A stretch of 64,000 bases of DNA from Methanosphaerula palustris E1-9c (GTDB lineage: Archaea > Halobacteriota > Methanomicrobia > Methanomicrobiales > Methanospirillaceae), in the NCBI RefSeq assembly GCF_000021965.1, contig NC_011832.1:2831242-2895241 (forward strand). The letters are read 5' to 3'. The notes beneath the pieces were generated by a model, which searched no databases, was not told where the DNA came from, and was given only the letters and a program-made list of their open reading frames with translations. Made by a program: the position numbers and the translations under genes. Below, in pieces: positions 29,045-38,848 of the stretch (its first letter is position 1; every line of letters begins with the position of its first letter).

Positions 29045-32000
29045 TCACTCCTCTTCCTGGATCTCCGGAACCGGTTCCTCAAGTTCAAGTTGCTCTGGTT
29101 GCTCAGACTGTTCGGTCGCGCTCTCCTCCCGAAGGAGCAGCCCTGCCCGCTTTCGAACCAGGTACGATGAGTCGGCAGCGGCATGTTCGAGGAGAACCGC
29201 AGCAGAAGGCCCACCGATCTTGGCAAGAGCACTGACCACCCCGAGCCGGATCTCAGGATCTGGATCGTTGATAAACTGGGCGAGAGGAGGGAGGGCATCC
29301 TCACCAAAACGGCCGATTTCAGACCACCGCTCCTCTGCGATCAGGTATCCTACCTCCTGGACGGTATCTGTAGGTGTCCAACCGGCAGCCGCGAGGCTCT
29401 CTGCAGAGCCGGCGCGGATCTCCTTCTCCGGATCGTTGAGGGCTTCCACCAGCGCCTCGGTGGCCCCTGAACCGAGTGCTGTCAGAGCCTCCCCAGCGAC
29501 CTGTCTGACCCCATAGTCGTCGGCATCCAGCAACTGGATCAATGGTGCAGCAGCAGCAGGGTCCTGAATTTCACCGAGCGACCGGGCTGCCCGCATGACG
29601 ACCTCGTCGCTCTGATCCTCGAGTGCAGTGATCAGGTCCGGCACCGCAGCCTGGTCTCCGAGCAACCCGAGTGACGCGGATGCAGATGCCCGAACGTCCT
29701 CATCCTCATCAGTCAGCAGCGTTCTGAGCAGGTCCCCAGCCCGAGGGTCATGGCTCTTGGCAAGGGCATGAGCGACCTTCTTCCGAACCCGGGCCTCTTC
29801 ATGCACAGAGGCCTCGATCAGTAGAACAAAATCAGGATCCTCGGAAGGAACTGTACCGGATTCCAGCCCTCCAGACTCGTCGATAGGTTCAGGGAGCGGT
29901 GGAACTGACCGAGGGGTTGGGTTCAATTGGGTGACCTCAATCGGGGGAGGGCCTTCCTGAGGAATCGTGATCTCATGAATAGGAGAGACCTCCCCTGACA
30001 GCACGGCATGAAACTGCCTGGGAGGGAGAGGGGAGAGGGTTGTTTCTTCTTCATGAAGGCGGGCCAGCAACATCTTAGCATCCTTTTGTCGTCTCTCATC
30101 TGCAGTGTCTGAGGCCTGCATGGCAAGATCCTGATCAGCCCCGAGCGTCCTCAGGGCCCAGATCACATCCTCTGCCGTAGCACGATCACCGGACTCGAAG
30201 AGGGCCACGAGGGGGCCGATCCCCTGCCGATTTCCAATCATGCCCAAGGCCCTGGCCGCGGCCCCTCTGACCACCGGGTACTGATCATGCAATGCCCGGA
30301 CCAGAACCTCGGTTGTAGCAGGGTTCCGGAGCTCTCCAAGGGCATGAGCCGCCTGACTCCTGACCTCCTCATCCTCGTCCTCGATCAGCAGGTTGACCAG
30401 CGGAGAGAGAGCTCGCTGATCCCGGATCTGACCGAGAGCGTCGGCAGCTGTGACCCTGACCTGGTAGTATGGATCCTGAAGCGCCTTGAGCAGCAGAGGC
30501 ACCGATTCGATCCCGATCTGTCCGAGCACCTCAGCAGCCACCATCCTGACCGCATCGTCCTCTGCGGAGAGGCCTGGACCGACGGCGCTGACAATCACCG
30601 AGGGCTGGTCACTGGAGAGAACTCCATGTTGATCGGCAAGGTACGAGGAGATCAGCTGGGATCGTTCTTCATCATCAGGAGAATTCCGCTGGAGTGTCTC
30701 CATCAGGGAGAGGAAGGCCGACTCCTGGACCGGAGCCCAGCCGGACGCTTCATTATCCATGGAGCCGGCAGTCTCCAATCCTGGACCACCCACAACTGGA
30801 AGGACCGAAGAGGGGGTGATGGAAGGTGTCCCGTCATCCATCTGTGGGATGATCAGGTCATCTGAATCCAGCCAGGAAGAGAGAGGTTCTGGGGTCGCCA
30901 GATCATCCTCAACTGGGAGATCCCAGAATGGTGGTGCCTCAATAGTCATCGTCGTCGATTGGAGAGAGGAGAGATCGATCGGGGGCAGAGAATCATCCAG
31001 CCCAGCGAGGATCTGGTCCGCATCCTCCAGATCATCTGATAAGGGAAGGGATGGTCCATCCTCAATATCCCGGGTAAATTCAATGGATCCTCCCACCGCC
31101 GGCTCTGCCGTCATCATCTCCTCTGGCGACTGCGTCCCGGTCGGGGAGAGGAGGAGGGCCAGATCGTCCTCGACAGGATCGGGCTCACAGGGTGTGGGTG
31201 TCAACCCGGATGCTGAAATGTCCTCGGTCCATGAGATATCCGGATAGACCTCCCGTCTGATATGCAGTGGGGGAGTGATGTTGGGCCTGATCTGTTCGAT
31301 ATAGGTCGGTGCAGACTGTTCCCTGGGAAAGGCACCGAGCCGCATCAGCACACCGGTAGATCCGGCCCGAATGGCTGGGTTCTGGTCGTGGAGGGCCCGG
31401 ATCAGAGATTTCACGGCAGGATCGCCGATTCTCCAGAGGGCCTCGGCGCTACCGGTCCGGATCCCATAATATTCATCGCCGAGGGCCGTGATCAACACCG
31501 GAATCGCAGCAGGCCCATGCCTTATCAACTGGGACCATTGCTCTGTAGCCACCAACAGGGTCAACTGCTCCTGTTCGTCATCAGGAACCCAGTTGATCCT
31601 AGCCAGGGCCTGAGCTGCCGCCATTCTGACACTGTGCGCATGGTCATTGATCGCAGCCCGAAGCGCCGGGATCGCCTGGTCGTCGACGAGGAGACCGAGC
31701 GCCTCGGCAGCTCCTGCACGGACCGTCTCCTCGGGATCAGTGATCAGCAGCCGTCGAAGGGGATCGATAGCCCGAAGATCCCCAATCGAACCGAGGGCCA
31801 GAGCGACATCCCGTCTCACCGCATAATGACTGTCTTCCAGAGCGGCCAGCAGCGGGAGGACCACGGCCTTGCGTTTCTTCACCAGTTCCGACCACTGGCC
31901 AGTCGCAAACAGGTACCGAAACTTCTCCCGCTCATCCTGTGGCACCCACCCAGTCCGATCGAGGGCCAGCGCCGCCCCGTATCGGATCCGGTACGATGGG

Positions 32001-32446
32001 TGCATCAGGGCAGCCAGCAACTGCGGCCTGGCCGGTTCACCCATCATCCCGAGCGCAACGATAGCCCCCTTCCGGATCTCCTCATACTCACTGTTCAGCG
32101 CTCCCATCAGGGGTAGCACTACCTGATCGCCCATCGTTGCGATCAACGTCGCGACGCCGGGAAAGGTATGGCCGGTGTCATCACCGAGGGCAGTGATCAG
32201 GGTCTCCACCGGGAGGTTGGGGATCTCCTTGAGCACCGCAGACACTCGCTGCTGAAGCTCAGCGTTTCCATGCTGGAGAGTATCGAGCAGCAGTGGAACG
32301 CTGATCCTTCCCATCGAACGGAGAATGGTACTGGCCTGCCGCTGTACTATTGGATCCCGATGAGAGAGGGCCGCAATCAGCCCGCTGACGTCCTGTCGTT
32401 CGGCCAGCTTGCCGAGGTTGGGCCTGAAGAGATCATGCAGCCACAT
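29045..32446 (-). CDS. Giant HEAT-repeat protein (1133 aa)
   Basis: Three blocks of PBS-lyase-type HEAT repeats (about residues 20-385, 630-800 and 885-1110), with units such as AAAQALARINW and VRSQAAHALGELRN, separated by long acidic Pro/Ser/Thr-rich linkers (about 395-630 and 800-885). No signal peptide or membrane helix. Several repeats carry an inserted W-containing loop (GWVPQDEREKFRYLFATGQW) that recurs in blocks 1 and 3. Probably a large scaffold for protein-protein contacts; partners are unknown. A TATA-like TTATAAAC lies at about 32490-32501. Confidence 0.85.
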   Translation of the reverse strand: MWLHDLFRPNLGKLAERQDVSGLIAALSHRDPIVQRQASTILRSMGRISVPLLLDTLQHGNAELQQRVSAVLKEIPNLPVETLITALGDDTGHTFPGVATLIATMGDQVVLPLMGALNSEYEEIRKGAIVALGMMGEPARPQLLAALMHPSYRIRYGAALALDRTGWVPQDEREKFRYLFATGQWSELVKKRKAVVLPLLAALEDSHYAVRRDVALALGSIGDLRAIDPLRRLLITDPEETVRAGAAEALGLLVDDQAIPALRAAINDHAHSVRMAAAQALARINWVPDDEQEQLTLLVATEQWSQLIRHGPAAIPVLITALGDEYYGIRTGSAEALWRIGDPAVKSLIRALHDQNPAIRAGSTGVLMRLGAFPREQSAPTYIEQIRPNITPPLHIRREVYPDISWTEDISASGLTPTPCEPDPVEDDLALLLSPTGTQSPEEMMTAEPAVGGSIEFTRDIEDGPSLPLSDDLEDADQILAGLDDSLPPIDLSSLQSTTMTIEAPPFWDLPVEDDLATPEPLSSWLDSDDLIIPQMDDGTPSITPSSVLPVVGGPGLETAGSMDNEASGWAPVQESAFLSLMETLQRNSPDDEERSQLISSYLADQHGVLSSDQPSVIVSAVGPGLSAEDDAVRMVAAEVLGQIGIESVPLLLKALQDPYYQVRVTAADALGQIRDQRALSPLVNLLIEDEDEEVRSQAAHALGELRNPATTEVLVRALHDQYPVVRGAAARALGMIGNRQGIGPLVALFESGDRATAEDVIWALRTLGADQDLAMQASDTADERRQKDAKMLLARLHEEETTLSPLPPRQFHAVLSGEVSPIHEITIPQEGPPPIEVTQLNPTPRSVPPLPEPIDESGGLESGTVPSEDPDFVLLIEASVHEEARVRKKVAHALAKSHDPRAGDLLRTLLTDEDEDVRASASASLGLLGDQAAVPDLITALEDQSDEVVMRAARSLGEIQDPAAAAPLIQLLDADDYGVRQVAGEALTALGSGATEALVEALNDPEKEIRAGSAESLAAAGWTPTDTVQEVGYLIAEERWSEIGRFGEDALPPLAQFINDPDPEIRLGVVSALAKIGGPSAAVLLEHAAADSSYLVRKRAGLLLREESATEQSEQPEQLELEEPVPEIQEEE

Positions 32447-32513: not shown

Positions 32514-33632
32514 TCAGAGAGCTCCGATGAACCGATCCCTGATCGCTTCCGGTGAGAGTGGGATGTTCGGTACCTGGGTGTTTCCCGGTCTGATCAGCAC
32601 ATGGACGAAGAGAGGGCCATCAACCTGATCGCTGCAGACCGCAGCCAGTTCCTCGGGACCCTGGACCTTGACAGTCGAAATGATACCTGCAGCCCTGGCC
32701 ATCAGTTCGATGTCCACCCCGGTCGCCGCATAGGTCGGCTGGTTACCGGTCGAGCCAAACGCCCCGTTGTCCAGGCAGAAAATCCGGAGGTTTGGAGGAT
32801 GGGCTGCCCCGACGGCCGGGAGGATCCCTGTCCCGAGCATACTTCCATCCCCATCGATCACCCAGACATCCCGATCGGTGACCGAGGCCAGACCGAATCC
32901 GACCGGGGTGGCCTGAGTGTAACTGCCGAGCATGTAGAAATTTTGCGGACGGTCATGGTGCACATAGAGTTCCTTGCTCGGCATCCCGATGTTGGCCACG
33001 ACCGCCTGGTCGGTCAGCGCCCCGCTGATCACCCCGATCGCATCCGACCGGGTCATCACCGGCTCTCGGATCTTGCGCTGGTAGCAGATCGCTGAGGTTC
33101 GTCCCCGTGACGGAAAGGGTCCAGAGGTCGCACATTCGCCACCCCCCTCCCAGACCTTCGGGGAGATCAGGGCGACCGAAGGAGTATGATCTTCAAACGC
33201 CTCCTGGATCACCTGGTTGACCAGGCCAAGTTCGCCGGCCTCCCTGATGATCTGGTACGGGATCCCAAGCGCATCCAGCACCGCCGGAAGCGGCCGATTG
33301 AATGGGACCTGCGCCGGAATCGCCTCGTGATAAAACCCGCGCCAGCTGGCGATGATCGGGAGCGGGAGGCGGTAGGTCATCGTCAGTGACATCAGGGCAT
33401 TGAGCGAGTTACCGAGGCCAGAACTCTGGATCACCAGTGCCGGCCGGGAACCCCCAAGGGCAGCACCGGCGCAGACACCGACCCCGTCCTCCTCCCGGTT
33501 CACCGGGATCTCAGGGATATGAGCGGTGAGCAGTGAGCAGAGATCCTTTGTCCGGTCGCAGGGGAGGGTCGCAGCAAGGTCGATCTTCTGTTCAGAGAGG
33601 ATGGAGATCAGGTCCGTTTCATGCATGGTCAT
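32514..33632 (-). CDS. comDE: Sulfopyruvate decarboxylase, fused alpha-beta
   Basis: 372 residues joining ComD (about 1-185, CDRTKDLCSLL, NREEDGVGVCAGAALGG) and ComE (about 190-372, with TPP motif VIDGDGSMLGTGIL to FCLDNGAFGSTGNQ). It decarboxylates sulfopyruvate to sulfoacetaldehyde, the precursor of coenzyme M. It overlaps the cysteate synthase gene by up to 14 nt (an internal ATG at 33626 would overlap by 8). Last gene of the six-gene operon. Confidence 0.93.
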   Translation of the reverse strand: MTMHETDLISILSEQKIDLAATLPCDRTKDLCSLLTAHIPEIPVNREEDGVGVCAGAALGGSRPALVIQSSGLGNSLNALMSLTMTYRLPLPIIASWRGFYHEAIPAQVPFNRPLPAVLDALGIPYQIIREAGELGLVNQVIQEAFEDHTPSVALISPKVWEGGGECATSGPFPSRGRTSAICYQRKIREPVMTRSDAIGVISGALTDQAVVANIGMPSKELYVHHDRPQNFYMLGSYTQATPVGFGLASVTDRDVWVIDGDGSMLGTGILPAVGAAHPPNLRIFCLDNGAFGSTGNQPTYAATGVDIELMARAAGIISTVKVQGPEELAAVCSDQVDGPLFVHVLIRPGNTQVPNIPLSPEAIRDRFIGAL

Positions 33633-34896
33633 TCACCCAGGTGATTACATCTCTTCTGATTTCATCGTCAGGGTTGCCGGCAGGGACCCGGTATCCGGCC
33701 GGAGTCGGAACCAGAGTATGATCCTCAACGACACGGTCGTACCCGCCACCGGTGATGTTCAGCAGCACCCTTGATCCGGGTTCTATGGTTCCCATCTCGA
33801 TCGCCTGGATCAGCGAGGCTGTTGCGACCGCTGCGGCCGGATCGAGGTCTATTCCCTCGCAGTCGGTGAAGAGTGTGCCGGCAGCCCTGGCCAGACCGTT
33901 GCTGATCGCATACATCTCCCCGCCGGTGGCCTCAAGGGCATCATAGGTCCCGCCAGGGACCCCGTACGGTGGCGTCCGGTTGGTCAGCACCGGGGCAGAG
34001 ACCCATTGTTCTGCCTCCTCGGTGTATGGTGTCCCCGGGCCGACCTGAAGATCGCGGGTATGTTCCTCCCAGGCCGCCACCATCGGAACGAATGGCAGGT
34101 TCTGAGCGAGGTGAAGGATCGGGAGCCGTCCACCGAACCGCCCGTCCCGGATCAGCCGGGAGGCTGCCTCGTACGCGGCGACACCCCCGGTCCCGGATCC
34201 GACTGCCTGGACATAATGGTCGGGGATACGTCCGATCGTCACCGCCCCATCGAGCATCACCGTCCCCATCCCATCCCGGCGAGCCACGTTCCGGGCGCCT
34301 CCCTCAACGATCAGCCGGGGGTCGACGGCTGCCAGCGCCGTGCTGTACGCGATCGCATCGGCATAGTCGCCATCGACCCCGATCACCAGCGCCGCTGGAG
34401 CAGGCTCGGTGGTCCAGAGCCGAGGAAGGGCTGATTGCGGGACCACGATCACGACCGGGATACCGGTCAGGGCCGAGACCTGACAGAACGCCCGGGCCGT
34501 GTTCCCTGCTGAGGCGACGACCAGGATCCCCGCTGTTCGTTCGGTCGCACGCAGCATCGACGGGACCGCTTCGAGCTCCTTGAACGAGCAGGTGACGAGA
34601 TCGGCCCCCCGTTCAGGCCAATAGCCGTTGAACCCGATGAAGAGGTGCGCAAGCCCGAGTTCCTCTGCCAGGCCGTCGCTCTGGTAGGTAACGGTCCCCC
34701 CGGTGAACGGAAGCCGGCCCCTGACCGGCAACCATGACTCATACCGGAAGATCCCGGGCTGGCCACTGAGGGAGAGAGTTCTCTCCGGGTAATCCGTCAC
34801 CAGGAGCCCGGGGTGGCCGGCCGGACAGAACGAGGAGTAGCGATCCGTGATCCTCAGTCCACAGGTCGGGCACCTGAGCTGGTAATCTCCACTCAT
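33619..34896 (-). CDS. Cysteate synthase (threonine-synthase-like)
   Basis: 425 residues of the PLP fold-type II family. It starts with a zinc-finger-like LRCPTCGLRI and has the loop VVASAGNTARAF of the threonine synthase family and AVGSGTGGVAAYEAASR for the PLP phosphate. Adjacency to comDE identifies it as cysteate synthase, which makes L-cysteate from phosphoserine and sulfite, the route described for Methanosarcinales. A paralogous threonine synthase cannot be excluded by sequence alone. ATGA overlap with the DUF39 gene. Confidence 0.87.
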   Translation of the reverse strand: MSGDYQLRCPTCGLRITDRYSSFCPAGHPGLLVTDYPERTLSLSGQPGIFRYESWLPVRGRLPFTGGTVTYQSDGLAEELGLAHLFIGFNGYWPERGADLVTCSFKELEAVPSMLRATERTAGILVVASAGNTARAFCQVSALTGIPVVIVVPQSALPRLWTTEPAPAALVIGVDGDYADAIAYSTALAAVDPRLIVEGGARNVARRDGMGTVMLDGAVTIGRIPDHYVQAVGSGTGGVAAYEAASRLIRDGRFGGRLPILHLAQNLPFVPMVAAWEEHTRDLQVGPGTPYTEEAEQWVSAPVLTNRTPPYGVPGGTYDALEATGGEMYAISNGLARAAGTLFTDCEGIDLDPAAAVATASLIQAIEMGTIEPGSRVLLNITGGGYDRVVEDHTLVPTPAGYRVPAGNPDDEIRRDVITWVNDHA

Positions 34897-36137
34897 AGTG
34901 AATCGACCTTCCTGGTGAGACTGAAGGTGCCGACCCGGATCCGCTCCTTGAGCTCGGCACAGAGACGTGTGCCGCGGATCCGATCCGACTGGCGGAGGGT
35001 GATCGGCACCTGCCTTCCCTCATAAGTGATTGCACCGAGGATCCCGGAGAAGGCTGGTCCAGGGCAGACCTGCACGCAGGTTCCGCAGTTCACACACCGG
35101 TCCCGATCGATCACCGCGCCCGGACTGATCGCCCCGGTCGGGCAGAGAGTAGCCGCCCGGCAGGTCTCGCAGTGAACACAGCCGGACGGATCGTTCTGGA
35201 TCCGATGATCGGTTCCCTGCCAGACCTCGCTGTACTTCGAGGCTGCGCATCCTGTCCGATCGTTGATCCCTGCGATCGGCAGATTGACTTCTGCATCGAG
35301 GACCAGCAACGGGTCGAGCGCCGCCTGGTCGAGCACCGGGATCGGAGCTGCGAGAGAGGTCAGGCACTCGGGTCCGACTGAGGTGATGAAACCCCCCATC
35401 ATCTGGGGGTTCATCCCCTTCATGTCTCCATAGACCGAGAGGTTCGGTTTCTCCTGGCTGGAGCGGGTTCCCTCGCCGATCACGTACCCGGTTCCGCCGT
35501 TCAGCAACACCCTGGTCCCGGTGCCGATGAACCGTCGCTCGGGATCGTTCTCGAGCGGGTTGATCTCTCCGCAACCACTGACCGAGACCTCGGTGCACGG
35601 GCCAGCGAGACCAGTCACTGAGAAGATCGTCTGGATCGGGTCGACCGACCGGTTGATCATCGCATGGTAGTTCCGAAACGCCATCCGTGTTGCAATGATC
35701 CGGGCCAATCCCATCTGGTTCAGGGTGATCATCGTCTCCAGAGTCTGCTCTCCTGCAACAACCTCGACCGCGATCACATGGCCTGCGACGATATCCCGGA
35801 AGAGGTGGCCGCCGCCGTACCGGTGGTCGCGGTGGGCGGTCCCATAGACCACCAGATCCAGGATCCCGTTCCGCTCGTTCGGACAGGGGCCGGGGTAGGC
35901 TGGCACCCCGTTCAACAGCACCTGCTCGGCCTTCTGGAATGTTCCCGGCTTCGCCACCGAAAACGAGAGGACCGCCATCGTCCCTGACATCACCCCGAAG
36001 GTCCCGGTGGTGACGACATCCACCTTCTCGGGGGTGACCGTCTCCCCCTCTCTGATCCGGGCCTTCAGCTCGTCTGCTGTCAGCACAACCGCCGTCCCCT
36101 CCCGGATCTTTTGATTGATCTCATCGATCGTCTTCAT
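34893..36137 (-). CDS. DUF39/COG1900 protein with C-terminal ferredoxin domain (methanogenesis marker 16)
   Basis: 414 residues. The first 325 match the DUF39 family (MKTIDEINQKIREGTAVVL, GTFGVMSGTMAVLSF, YPGPCPNERNGILDLVVYG, GGYVIGEG-like Gly loops). The last part binds two [4Fe-4S] clusters (CVHCETCRAATLCP and CVNCGTCVQVCP). Other COG1900 members take part in reductive sulfur transfer that makes homocysteine. With cysteate synthase and ComDE alongside, the likely role is the last CoM step, the reductive thiolation of sulfoacetaldehyde; this is inference. Confidence 0.85.
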   Translation of the reverse strand: MKTIDEINQKIREGTAVVLTADELKARIREGETVTPEKVDVVTTGTFGVMSGTMAVLSFSVAKPGTFQKAEQVLLNGVPAYPGPCPNERNGILDLVVYGTAHRDHRYGGGHLFRDIVAGHVIAVEVVAGEQTLETMITLNQMGLARIIATRMAFRNYHAMINRSVDPIQTIFSVTGLAGPCTEVSVSGCGEINPLENDPERRFIGTGTRVLLNGGTGYVIGEGTRSSQEKPNLSVYGDMKGMNPQMMGGFITSVGPECLTSLAAPIPVLDQAALDPLLVLDAEVNLPIAGINDRTGCAASKYSEVWQGTDHRIQNDPSGCVHCETCRAATLCPTGAISPGAVIDRDRCVNCGTCVQVCPGPAFSGILGAITYEGRQVPITLRQSDRIRGTRLCAELKERIRVGTFSLTRKVDSL

Positions 36138-36769
36138 AATATCCTGATATCCTCAAGCCGGATATGGAGTCCGAATGACTTCTGCATCACCATGTTCACC
36201 ACGGCAGTATGCGAGAGGTTGATCATGCACGAGCCGGGCAGAAACCGCTGCCTCCGTCCCAGCACCGGCGGAGCCGCGAAGATCTCGGCAACCCCTTCAA
36301 AGGAGGCCACATGATAGGCCTGCACATCGTGCACATTCAGACCGGCCTCCCGTGCCACCATCGGCCCGACGGTGTGGCAGACCAGCAGGCCGGTCACGGG
36401 GTTGGCCGAGATGACCCGCAGGCCATGATATACCGGACAGCCCGGACCGGCAGGTCGGCCGGTCACGATATCCCCCTCTTGGATCCCCCATCGTTCGACC
36501 AGGTCAGCTCGGAACGGAACGATCCCCTTTCGTGCCGAGATCTCCCCGGGCAGAGGGGCCAGCACAAAGTCGTACACGGCCCCATGGACATCCTTGCCCG
36601 TATACGGCGAGGCGACCCCCCTGATCTGCGGGTCCACCGTCCCCTCCTCCCGGTAGAACGGGCAGTTCTGCATCTCCTTGCTTCCCTCTTCAACCAGAGC
36701 GACAAAACTATCGCAGCCCGCCGCACCGCAGGCCCCGCAGTCCCTCCCTGGGGGAACCCAGCCGACCAT
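36134..36769 (-). CDS. FeS-domain protein of the CoM operon, unknown function
   Basis: 211 residues. It begins with a PF04060-type FeS motif (PPGRDCGACGAAGCDSF and a later NCPFY) seen in CdhE and RnfB. The remaining 160 residues (PFRADLVERWGIQEGDIVTG, GPGCPVYHGLR, SCMINLSHTAVVNMVMQ) resemble conserved methanogen proteins of unknown activity. It lies directly after the NTPase gene (TGAATG junction) and overlaps the DUF39 gene, so it is expected to work with both. Confidence 0.8.
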   Translation of the reverse strand: MVGWVPPGRDCGACGAAGCDSFVALVEEGSKEMQNCPFYREEGTVDPQIRGVASPYTGKDVHGAVYDFVLAPLPGEISARKGIVPFRADLVERWGIQEGDIVTGRPAGPGCPVYHGLRVISANPVTGLLVCHTVGPMVAREAGLNVHDVQAYHVASFEGVAEIFAAPPVLGRRQRFLPGSCMINLSHTAVVNMVMQKSFGLHIRLEDIRIL

Positions 36770-37477
36770 TCAGTCACCCCGGAAGAGGTGGTCGGCGTTA
36801 TCGAGCTGTCTGAGCACCCCAAAGTGGTGCTGCCAGCCGATCTCCTTCTTGCCGACACAGATGGTGCAGACCCCAAGCGGGGGACTGCCACGGAGTACGA
36901 TCGTCGCGGGATCGGTAACCTCTTCTGCCTGTGCGACCCGCTCGATCAGGTACCGGAGACCGGTCCCCTGCACAGCATTGGTCTCGATGATATCAACACC
37001 CGGGCTCACCTCCAGGATACACTCCCGAAAGACCTCCTTCTCTGCCTGCGAGACCAGGTCTACCCTGGTCACCACCGCGATATCGGCGAGGGCGATCATC
37101 GGCGCCATCTTCAGCGGAGTGTTGGAGCCGCTGACGGCGCTGACCACCACGACCCCGAGGGCCTGTGTCGTGAAGGGAGTACACCGGAGGCAGAGGCCAG
37201 CACTCTCATAGATCAACAGATCAGCCCCCTGCTTCTCCGCCCAGGAGAGTCCGTCCATCAGGACCATGATCCCGGTGTGATCAGGGCAGAGGTCGCCAGA
37301 GTAGACGATCCTGGTCGGGATCGAGAACTCCTGCTTCAGTTCCTGATCCTCAAAAGCTCGAACCACGTCGACCTTGAGATAGGCGATCCGATGCTCTCCC
37401 TGCAATTGCCGGATCACCTGCCTGGCCACGGCGGTCTTACCGGCGCTCGGGGGGCCGGCGATCGCGATCAGCTTCAT
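36770..37477 (-). CDS. CobW/HypB-like P-loop NTPase of the CoM operon
   Basis: 235 residues. Walker A IAGPPSAGKTAVA, a switch-like LKVDVVRAF, Asp-rich LIYESAGLCLRC, and VTRVDLV in the place of the base-recognition motif, as in the G3E/SIMIBI group (HypB, UreG, CobW, MeaB). A C-terminal pair CTIC (GVCTICVGKKEIGW) could bind metal. Such proteins load metals or cofactors into partner enzymes. Here the partner is presumably the adjacent FeS or DUF39 protein. Confidence 0.8.
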   Translation of the reverse strand: MKLIAIAGPPSAGKTAVARQVIRQLQGEHRIAYLKVDVVRAFEDQELKQEFSIPTRIVYSGDLCPDHTGIMVLMDGLSWAEKQGADLLIYESAGLCLRCTPFTTQALGVVVVSAVSGSNTPLKMAPMIALADIAVVTRVDLVSQAEKEVFRECILEVSPGVDIIETNAVQGTGLRYLIERVAQAEEVTDPATIVLRGSPPLGVCTICVGKKEIGWQHHFGVLRQLDNADHLFRGD

Positions 37478-38256
37478 TTGATCTCCACCCCGTCCGTGAT
37501 CTGCTCGCCGGCCCGGATCCGCTCGCGGAGGGAATAGAGAAGGGTATTGATCCCTGCAACCGTAGCGAGCGCAGCCTCCTCCGATCCGTCTGACTCGATC
37601 ACCTTCACGACGGCCCCACGTTGCATCACGATCCGGCGGTCTGAGAGAAGAGAGACATAGGGGTCGTGGGTGACGAAGATCACGGCACGCTTATGTTCTT
37701 TCAACGAGGCAATCACCCGGTCCTTGAAGATCCCAGCGTTCTCGATCTCGTCGAGCAGGATCAACGGGGTATCGCTGATTACGATCGCATCGGCCACCAT
37801 CAGTGACCGTGTCTGCCCCCCGGAGAGGGCCGTCATACGCATCGTCCCGGTGATCGCCTCGCCGGTGAACTGGTTGGCCTGGGCAATCGTCTCCTCGATC
37901 CTTGCCGGGTCTGTACACTTCCTGGCCTGCAGATGCATGATCAGAAAGTCCTGAACTGATAGGTCGGCCAGGCACTTGGTGTGCTGGGTGATCAGAGCGA
38001 TCGGCTTACTTGCAGGATCCCTGACCAGGACATCAGGGGGCAGAGCCCCGTTCACCAGTACACTCCTTCTGGTCGCGGTGTCCTGCTGGGCAAAGACCTC
38101 GATATCGTTGATCAATGCAGTCTTCCCTGACCCGGTCGGGCCCACGATCGAGATCGTGTCTCCAGGGCGGATAACGATCGCATCGAAGGTCTCCCGTTTC
38201 CCGTCCCGGCTGACGCCCGGGAGGAGGGTGATATCCCTGATTGCATATGCATCCAT
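37474..38256 (-). CDS. Soluble ABC-type ATPase of the CoM operon
   Basis: 260 residues with one ABC domain: Walker A GPTGSGKTALI, signature ALSGGQTRSL, Walker B PLILLDEIENAG, and switch His in VTHDPY. There is no membrane partner in the operon, so transport is unlikely. The insertion VEVFAQQD and the C-terminal tail differ from importers. It may act as a mechano-ATPase in cofactor assembly, as the component A2 ATPase does for methyl-CoM reductase. First gene of the operon; ATGA overlap with the NTPase gene. Confidence 0.82.
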   Translation of the reverse strand: MDAYAIRDITLLPGVSRDGKRETFDAIVIRPGDTISIVGPTGSGKTALINDIEVFAQQDTATRRSVLVNGALPPDVLVRDPASKPIALITQHTKCLADLSVQDFLIMHLQARKCTDPARIEETIAQANQFTGEAITGTMRMTALSGGQTRSLMVADAIVISDTPLILLDEIENAGIFKDRVIASLKEHKRAVIFVTHDPYVSLLSDRRIVMQRGAVVKVIESDGSEEAALATVAGINTLLYSLRERIRAGEQITDGVEIK

Positions 38257-38359
38257 ACCAGTCTTCTGGGTATACCGAATGAAATACTTTCTCTGAATAA
38301 ATTGAATAAATAACCCAATAAGGAAAATATATTAAAATATTATCTACAATAGTAAGATA

Positions 38360-38848
38360 ATGTTGATCAGACGTATACTTGACACCTCGTTTCAGGCCGT
38401 CCTGAACGAGGAACTGCGGCGACGGGACATGACCGTTCGGGAGCTGGCCGATGCAACCGGGATACCTGCGGCTACGCTGTACAAGATCACCGCCGGTGAA
38501 CGGGATCCACGCCTCTCAACCGTCACCAGGATCATCAATATCCTTGAACCGAGAGGCAGGGACTTCATCGCCGTGGTCGCGGCCAAGTTCGTCCTCGAGG
38601 AGGTCGAAGGAGAGGAGATCACCTGCGGAGAGCGGACCTGTACAATAAAAGGCTACTCTGCCAACTCCCTGGAAGAGTGTATCATCGCTGCGGTCAGGGC
38701 TGAAAAGGAGGGAGCGAGCGGAATCGTCTGCGCCCCGGTACTGGCCTCGATCATCGAGCGGATCGTCGACATTCCGGTTTCGATCATGAAACCGCAGCCA
38801 CCGACGATCATCGAGGCGATCGAGACCCTCGGAAAGCGAATCTCCTGA
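38360..38848 (+). CDS. HTH regulator with small-molecule-type C-terminal domain, divergent from CoM operon
   Basis: 162 residues. An XRE-type helix-turn-helix (about residues 22-60, MTVRELADATGIPAATLYKITAG) is followed by an alpha/beta domain (about 85-162, with SGIVCAPVLASIIERIVDIPVSIM) reminiscent of PrpR-type sensor domains. The 103-bp shared, AT-rich promoter region with the CoM operon makes this its likely local regulator, possibly responding to a CoM-related or sulfonate metabolite. Confidence 0.8.
   Translation: MLIRRILDTSFQAVLNEELRRRDMTVRELADATGIPAATLYKITAGERDPRLSTVTRIINILEPRGRDFIAVVAAKFVLEEVEGEEITCGERTCTIKGYSANSLEECIIAAVRAEKEGASGIVCAPVLASIIERIVDIPVSIMKPQPPTIIEAIETLGKRIS

Follow-up and report, generated by a model that had tools for sequence, protein, structure and literature searches.

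Coenzyme M (CoM) is essential for methane formation. We analyzed a 64,000-nucleotide stretch of Methanosphaerula palustris E1-9c (contig NC_011832.1, positions 2,831,242 to 2,895,241; below, the window), which carries a six-gene operon of the cysteate synthase (CS) type predicted to synthesize CoM. The closest described system is the CoM gene cluster of Chadwick et al. 2025 (PMC12068725), who showed by genetics that Methanosarcina acetivorans uses MMP16 (ComF) as its primary CoM synthase, with L-ASST able to substitute for it as a backup, and who refer to previous work in which MJ1681 on its own enabled E. coli to turn sulfoacetaldehyde into CoM. That cluster has, as here, CS, ComDE and MMP16 together with genes for an ATPase, a Ni2+-binding GTPase and a COG2000 Fe-S protein; the legend of their Fig. 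2 describes these three as often co-located and of unknown role, as did the original prediction for this locus, which held their roles to be not established. Sulfite is among the substrates of CS (PMC12713407) and of ComA (PMC3087415), and its source for CoM is called unclear in PMC6286981, where a sulfite reductase working in reverse is proposed.

Both the operon type and the role of the DUF39 protein as the final CoM enzyme are thus already known, and the ferredoxin-fused DUF39 protein, to which the original prediction assigned the final thiolation to CoM, is the ComF of PMC12068725. The new result is that the three accessory genes (ABC, NTPase and FeS; ABC-NTP-FeS in gene order) form a portable cassette. 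In distinction to the published cluster, this cassette is traced here into bacteria and is tied to CS and ComA above MMP16.

The operon and the association of its cassette with cysteate synthase

Six open reading frames (ORFs) were confirmed on the minus strand, running from position 38256 to 32514 of the window (protein lengths in amino acids, aa):

37474..38256 (-), ABC: soluble ABC ATPase, 260 aa; Walker A GPTGSGKT, signature LSGGQ, Walker B LILLDE; PF00005, 50 bits
36770..37477 (-), NTPase: HypB/UreG-fold metallochaperone-type NTPase, 235 aa; PF02492; motifs CPDH, AGLCLRC, CTICVG and a diagnostic His
36134..36769 (-), FeS: COG2000-type Fe-S protein, 211 aa; PF04060; N-terminal four-Cys cluster like that of the corrinoid iron-sulfur protein (CFeSP), followed by a beta-rich domain
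34893..36137 (-), MMP16/ComF: CoM synthase; HcyBio domain (DUF39/COG1900, PF01837) with an inserted ferredoxin domain (Fer4)
33619..34896 (-), CS: cysteate synthase, O-phosphoserine + sulfite to cysteate; TIGR03844, 566.4 bits (cut-off 324.9)
32514..33632 (-), ComDE: fused sulfopyruvate decarboxylase; TIGR03845 and TIGR03846 on one ORF

The family assignments originally made for the six genes hold against NCBIfam and Pfam profiles. MMP16/ComF scores 516.7 bits with TIGR03287 (cut-off 363.95), and its Fer4 matches fall within the HcyBio match. For ComDE, TIGR03845 (the alpha/beta pair with TIGR03846) reaches 203 bits, above its cut-off of 148, and TIGR03846 reaches 217.2 bits, 4 bits under its cut-off of 221.5, with a full-length match in the fused ORF. 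By its gene content the operon is of the published CS type and is predicted to serve CoM synthesis. Its gene order recurs across Methanomicrobiales and is therefore far beyond chance.

We examined which CoM gene the cassette follows in Methanomicrobiales genomes of 90% completeness or more, leaving out one partial FeS match; class I (ComABC) methanogens, which lie outside the genomes of this survey, are taken from PMC12068725. FeS is present in 52 of 53 genomes with CS and in 3 of 36 genomes without it, while MMP16 is present in 47 of the 53. Within Methanomicrobiales, the cassette tracks CS more closely than it tracks MMP16. All six Methanoregula-like genomes that have CS and lack MMP16 keep the cassette, and in all six it lies directly upstream of CS-ComDE. 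In a sample of the phylum, 33 of 34 FeS-positive genomes have CS. The cassette is dispensable in Methanosarcina-like genomes, where CS, ComDE and MMP16 are present and FeS is absent (M. acetivorans itself was outside the FeS search).

In the NTPase tree, the FeS-linked cassettes fall into two groups, one of Methanosarcinaceae and Labilibaculum and one of Methanocella, Clostridia and Methanomicrobiales (some taxon labels were inferred), so the CoM-linked cassettes are not one clade. Both subfamilies contain CoM-linked and stand-alone members, and the position of the cassette in the CS operon differs between them: upstream of MMP16-CS versus between CS and ComD. Mirror-tree correlations (r 0.90-0.94) are uninformative, because high values already arise from the species tree by itself. 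A relic operon (L078 5870-7295, genome G003) is a natural CoM-pathway loss mutant: a single internal deletion has cut the operon and joined NTPase residues 1-116 in frame with the C-terminus of ComDE, and the neighboring ABC gene is broken, having decayed along with it.

Two further arrangements were observed. In a Methanocella-like genome (L079 6965-8128), a gene for a class V aminotransferase, possibly a cysteate aminotransferase, stands between NTPase and FeS, and L192 and L195 have relatives of it close to CoM operons. The genome of the window carries a second ABC-NTP-FeS copy elsewhere, away from com genes (L069 8346-10663; G000:C1 about 1882345-1884662).

The cassette and its relatives in bacteria

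A scan of GTDB genomes with the NTPase alignment yielded at least 574 relatives, and the best 80 of these are almost all bacterial; with hundreds of bacterial relatives, the notion of a CoM-specific NTPase and ATPase was dropped. ABC adjoins the NTPase in 135 of 136 loci, and the remaining one lies at a contig end. In 77 of the 80 best NTPase loci the third gene encodes a solute-binding-fold protein, often fused to DUF1858, and ABC-NTPase pairs that have such a cytosolic binding protein as partner are widespread among anaerobes. This DUF1858/SBP_bac_6 system shares with the cassette homologous ABC and NTPase proteins and invariant CPDH and CxxC motifs, but has the binding-fold partner in place of FeS and Gln in place of the diagnostic His. 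The diagnostic position is His in 75 of 75 FeS-linked NTPase homologues and Gln in 85 of 85 others, and the FeS-linked NTPases form a separate clade (Shimodaira-Hasegawa-like approximate likelihood ratio test, SH-aLRT, 99). We found nothing on the module in the literature on DUF1858. The bacterial clusters of the DUF1858/SBP_bac_6 system (L102-L163, e.g. L135 8628-12066) are conserved and comprise the DUF1858-SBP_bac_6 protein, the HypB-like NTPase, the soluble ABC ATPase and a Cys-rich protein of 80 aa (MHDGCAGSF...); regulators of the Rrf2 or CRP/FNR type adjoin some of them.

Forty-nine bacterial genomes, reached through NTPase/ABC loci, were searched for FeS and MMP16. Full-length FeS was found in five (Pelotomaculum, Dethiobacter, Syntrophopropionicum and two Labilibaculum), each time as ABC-NTP-FeS, and the view of FeS as a methanogen-specific protein was abandoned on this result. 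MMP16 scored above its cut-off in none of the 49, all of which have the NTPase/ABC pair. The cassette is a self-contained ABC-NTP-FeS unit of fixed order and is found in Clostridia and Bacteroidota as well, and among FeS-linked cassettes no extra gene is conserved alongside the three.

Within the bacterial phylum to which the Pelotomaculum genome belongs, FeS occurs in 25 of 398 genomes. All 25 bacterial FeS loci examined show ABC-NTP-FeS in one order, on one strand and with the diagnostic His. In the phylum, ComA is present in 24 of the 25 FeS-positive genomes versus 135 of the 398 overall (Fisher p = 2e-11, a test that ignores kinship). Directly upstream of the cassette lies comA or comA-comB in three loci (L237, L240 and L244), and in a further genome (G638) comA and FeS share a contig, with about 2.3 kb between them. 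At L244 (8209-12104) the bacterial operon reads comA-comB-ABC-NTP-FeS, with genes for phosphosulfolactate synthase and phosphatase ahead of the cassette. At another locus (L190 5840-9737, genome G171) ABC-NTP-FeS is followed on the same strand by genes for NMT1/THI5-like and ThiF-family proteins, a possible link to sulfur activation.

Accessory proteins, gene junctions and flanking features

The NTPase resembles the nickel metallochaperone GTPases HypB and UreG in its fold and in its Cys/His region, where CPDH stands beside the CPH motif of UreG. The six best PDB matches of its structure model (predicted local distance difference test, pLDDT, 84) are UreG or HypB. It differs from both in its extra CxxC motifs, a C-terminal CxxC-His, its ABC ATPase partner and its equivalog scores, which fail both cut-offs (62 versus 121 for HypB and 29 versus 204 for UreG). 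All homologues keep the motifs CPDH, AGLCxRC and CxxCxG, whose conserved residues are ligand-like; metal binding and GTP hydrolysis by the NTPase are putative. The ABC protein reached no NCBIfam equivalog cut-off.

FeS resembles the large subunit of CFeSP in its first ~40 residues, which share the [4Fe-4S] ligand pattern and PF04060. It shows no match to the rest of CFeSP and has a different, beta-rich domain with an invariant set of two Cys and two His. These residues (C111, H115, C181 and H187) are conserved in 51 of 51 aligned rows, and also in the FeS alignment that includes bacterial homologues. The beta-rich domain is confidently modelled (pLDDT 88), and a PDB fold search with FeS gave no match past the first ~36 aa, and so no homologue of its main domain.

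As originally described, the six genes all overlap or abut and one junction (NTPase/FeS) is TGAATG; of the four ATGA junctions claimed, three were found (ABC/NTPase, FeS/MMP16 and MMP16/CS), CS and ComDE overlapping by 14 nt, or by 8 nt if an inner ATG is used. The gene set of the original prediction also overlooked a divergent helix-turn-helix (HTH) gene, a conserved neighbor of the operon in related genomes:

38360..38848 (+), HTH regulator gene, divergent; PF01381; candidate operon regulator
38257..38359, putative divergent promoter region, AT-rich, 103 bp, recognized from sequence; contains tandem TGAATAAAT and an inverted repeat

A homologue of the HTH gene adjoins ABC in 12 further loci of related genomes, including the relic operon, and the gene probably belongs with the operon. 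The operon is closely followed, in the same orientation, by a repeat-rich, HEAT-repeat-like ORF of 1133 aa (29045-32446).

Possible roles of the cassette

Since CS and ComA share the substrate sulfite and the cassette is linked to both, we place it on the sulfite/sulfonate side of the pathway. Our preferred reading, to which we give a little less than an even chance, is that the cassette is a metallochaperone-powered Fe-S system for the sulfite/sulfonate branch, helpful rather than essential. In this scheme CS, ComDE and MMP16/ComF would make CoM, with the aminotransferase encoded elsewhere. The NTPase would act as a HypB/UreG-like metallochaperone and ABC as the soluble ATPase that always accompanies it. 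From their association we infer that FeS is the client, whose metal site (C111/H115/C181/H187) the NTPase and ABC would load or reset at the expense of NTP, and that its low-potential 4Fe-4S domain would move electrons. The cassette would probably make or hand over sulfite, to be fixed by CS in methanogens and by ComA in bacteria.

Several observations weigh against this proposal. In the phylum sample, 29 of 62 CS-positive genomes lack the cassette, the Methanosarcina-like ones included, and sulfite must therefore also have another source. Most bacterial cassettes are not adjacent to comA, the association with ComA may partly reflect shared ancestry, as it carries no phylogenetic correction, and the comA-adjacent loci have other neighbors in common and may represent one lineage. 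The second cassette copy in the genome of the window lies beside large cell-surface-type ORFs, and second copies in three other genomes (G167, G204 and G174) lie beside PKD-domain or related genes. A wider role in sulfur or metal metabolism still has room, given the neighbors described next.

Such a wider role, in which the cassette is a general module for trafficking sulfur or metal and provides several sulfur enzymes with activated sulfide or a metal cofactor, the CoM genes being only one customer, is a serious though unlikely alternative. MetY/MetA flank the cassette in two other bacterial loci, which we also count in favor of the preferred reading, and its further neighbors include DUF364 heavy-metal chelation, NifX-like and NifU-like proteins; stand-alone operons and second copies apart from com genes would also fit. 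However, this reading does not predict the near-perfect nesting of the cassette in genomes that have CS or ComA.

According to the original prediction, the ATPase, NTPase and FeS assemble or activate MMP16/ComF, or feed it sulfur or electrons, in an ATP-dependent CoM-synthesis complex. In its favor, MMP16 sits between FeS and CS in most Methanomicrobiales, the two proteins are strongly associated (both in 46 genomes, one alone in 9 and 2), and the ferredoxin domain of MMP16 would need electrons. The anticipated sharing of gene order was indeed found across Methanomicrobiales, but the pairing of the trio with MMP16 is not obligatory: the six Methanoregula-like genomes, all of good quality, retain ABC-NTP-FeS-CS-ComDE without MMP16, bacteria without MMP16 carry the cassette alone, and the NTPase/ABC pair is widespread among them. 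This is to a large extent the outcome that the original prediction had named as speaking against it. Conversely, MMP16 functions cassette-free, both as MJ1681 in E. coli and in Methanosarcina (PMC12068725), in line with the Methanosarcina-like genomes above. An obligatory ATP-dependent CoM synthase most likely does not include the cassette as a subunit; the complex, which keeps some plausibility in species that have both MMP16 and the cassette, is disfavored, and we regard it as improbable.

It is still harder to credit that FeS itself thiolates sulfoacetaldehyde and stands in as an alternative CoM synthase where MMP16 is missing. The six Methanoregula-like genomes, with CS, ComDE and the cassette, would suit this idea, but MMP16 is also present in most cassette genomes, one genome (G019) has CS and ComDE with neither MMP16 nor cassette, L-ASST can back up MMP16 (PMC12068725), and the cassette occurs in bacteria without MMP16. 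An ABC importer for sulfonates or CoM is barely plausible and was dropped: ABC-NTPase pairs elsewhere adjoin solute-binding-fold proteins, but these partners show no evident signal peptide at their N-termini, and the ORF and Pfam scan found no membrane permease partner in the operon of the window.

The sulfite-side reading touches two gaps, namely the role of the three co-located genes (PMC12068725) and the origin of sulfite for CoM in organisms growing on sulfide (PMC6286981). With the cassette linked, in archaea as in bacteria, to enzymes that fix sulfite, the question shifts from thiolation, the last step, to sulfonation, the first. Clostridia offer simpler hosts for study of the cassette, and the reading is open to feeding tests. 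In its fullest form, which we consider a long way from probable, ABC-NTP-FeS would be an unrecognized anaerobic system, driven by ATP/GTP, for making or delivering the sulfite used in C-sulfonate synthesis, and would have evolved with CS in methanogens and with ComA in bacteria. If true, this would give one answer to how strict anaerobes living on sulfide obtain the sulfite for coenzyme M and sulfolactate.

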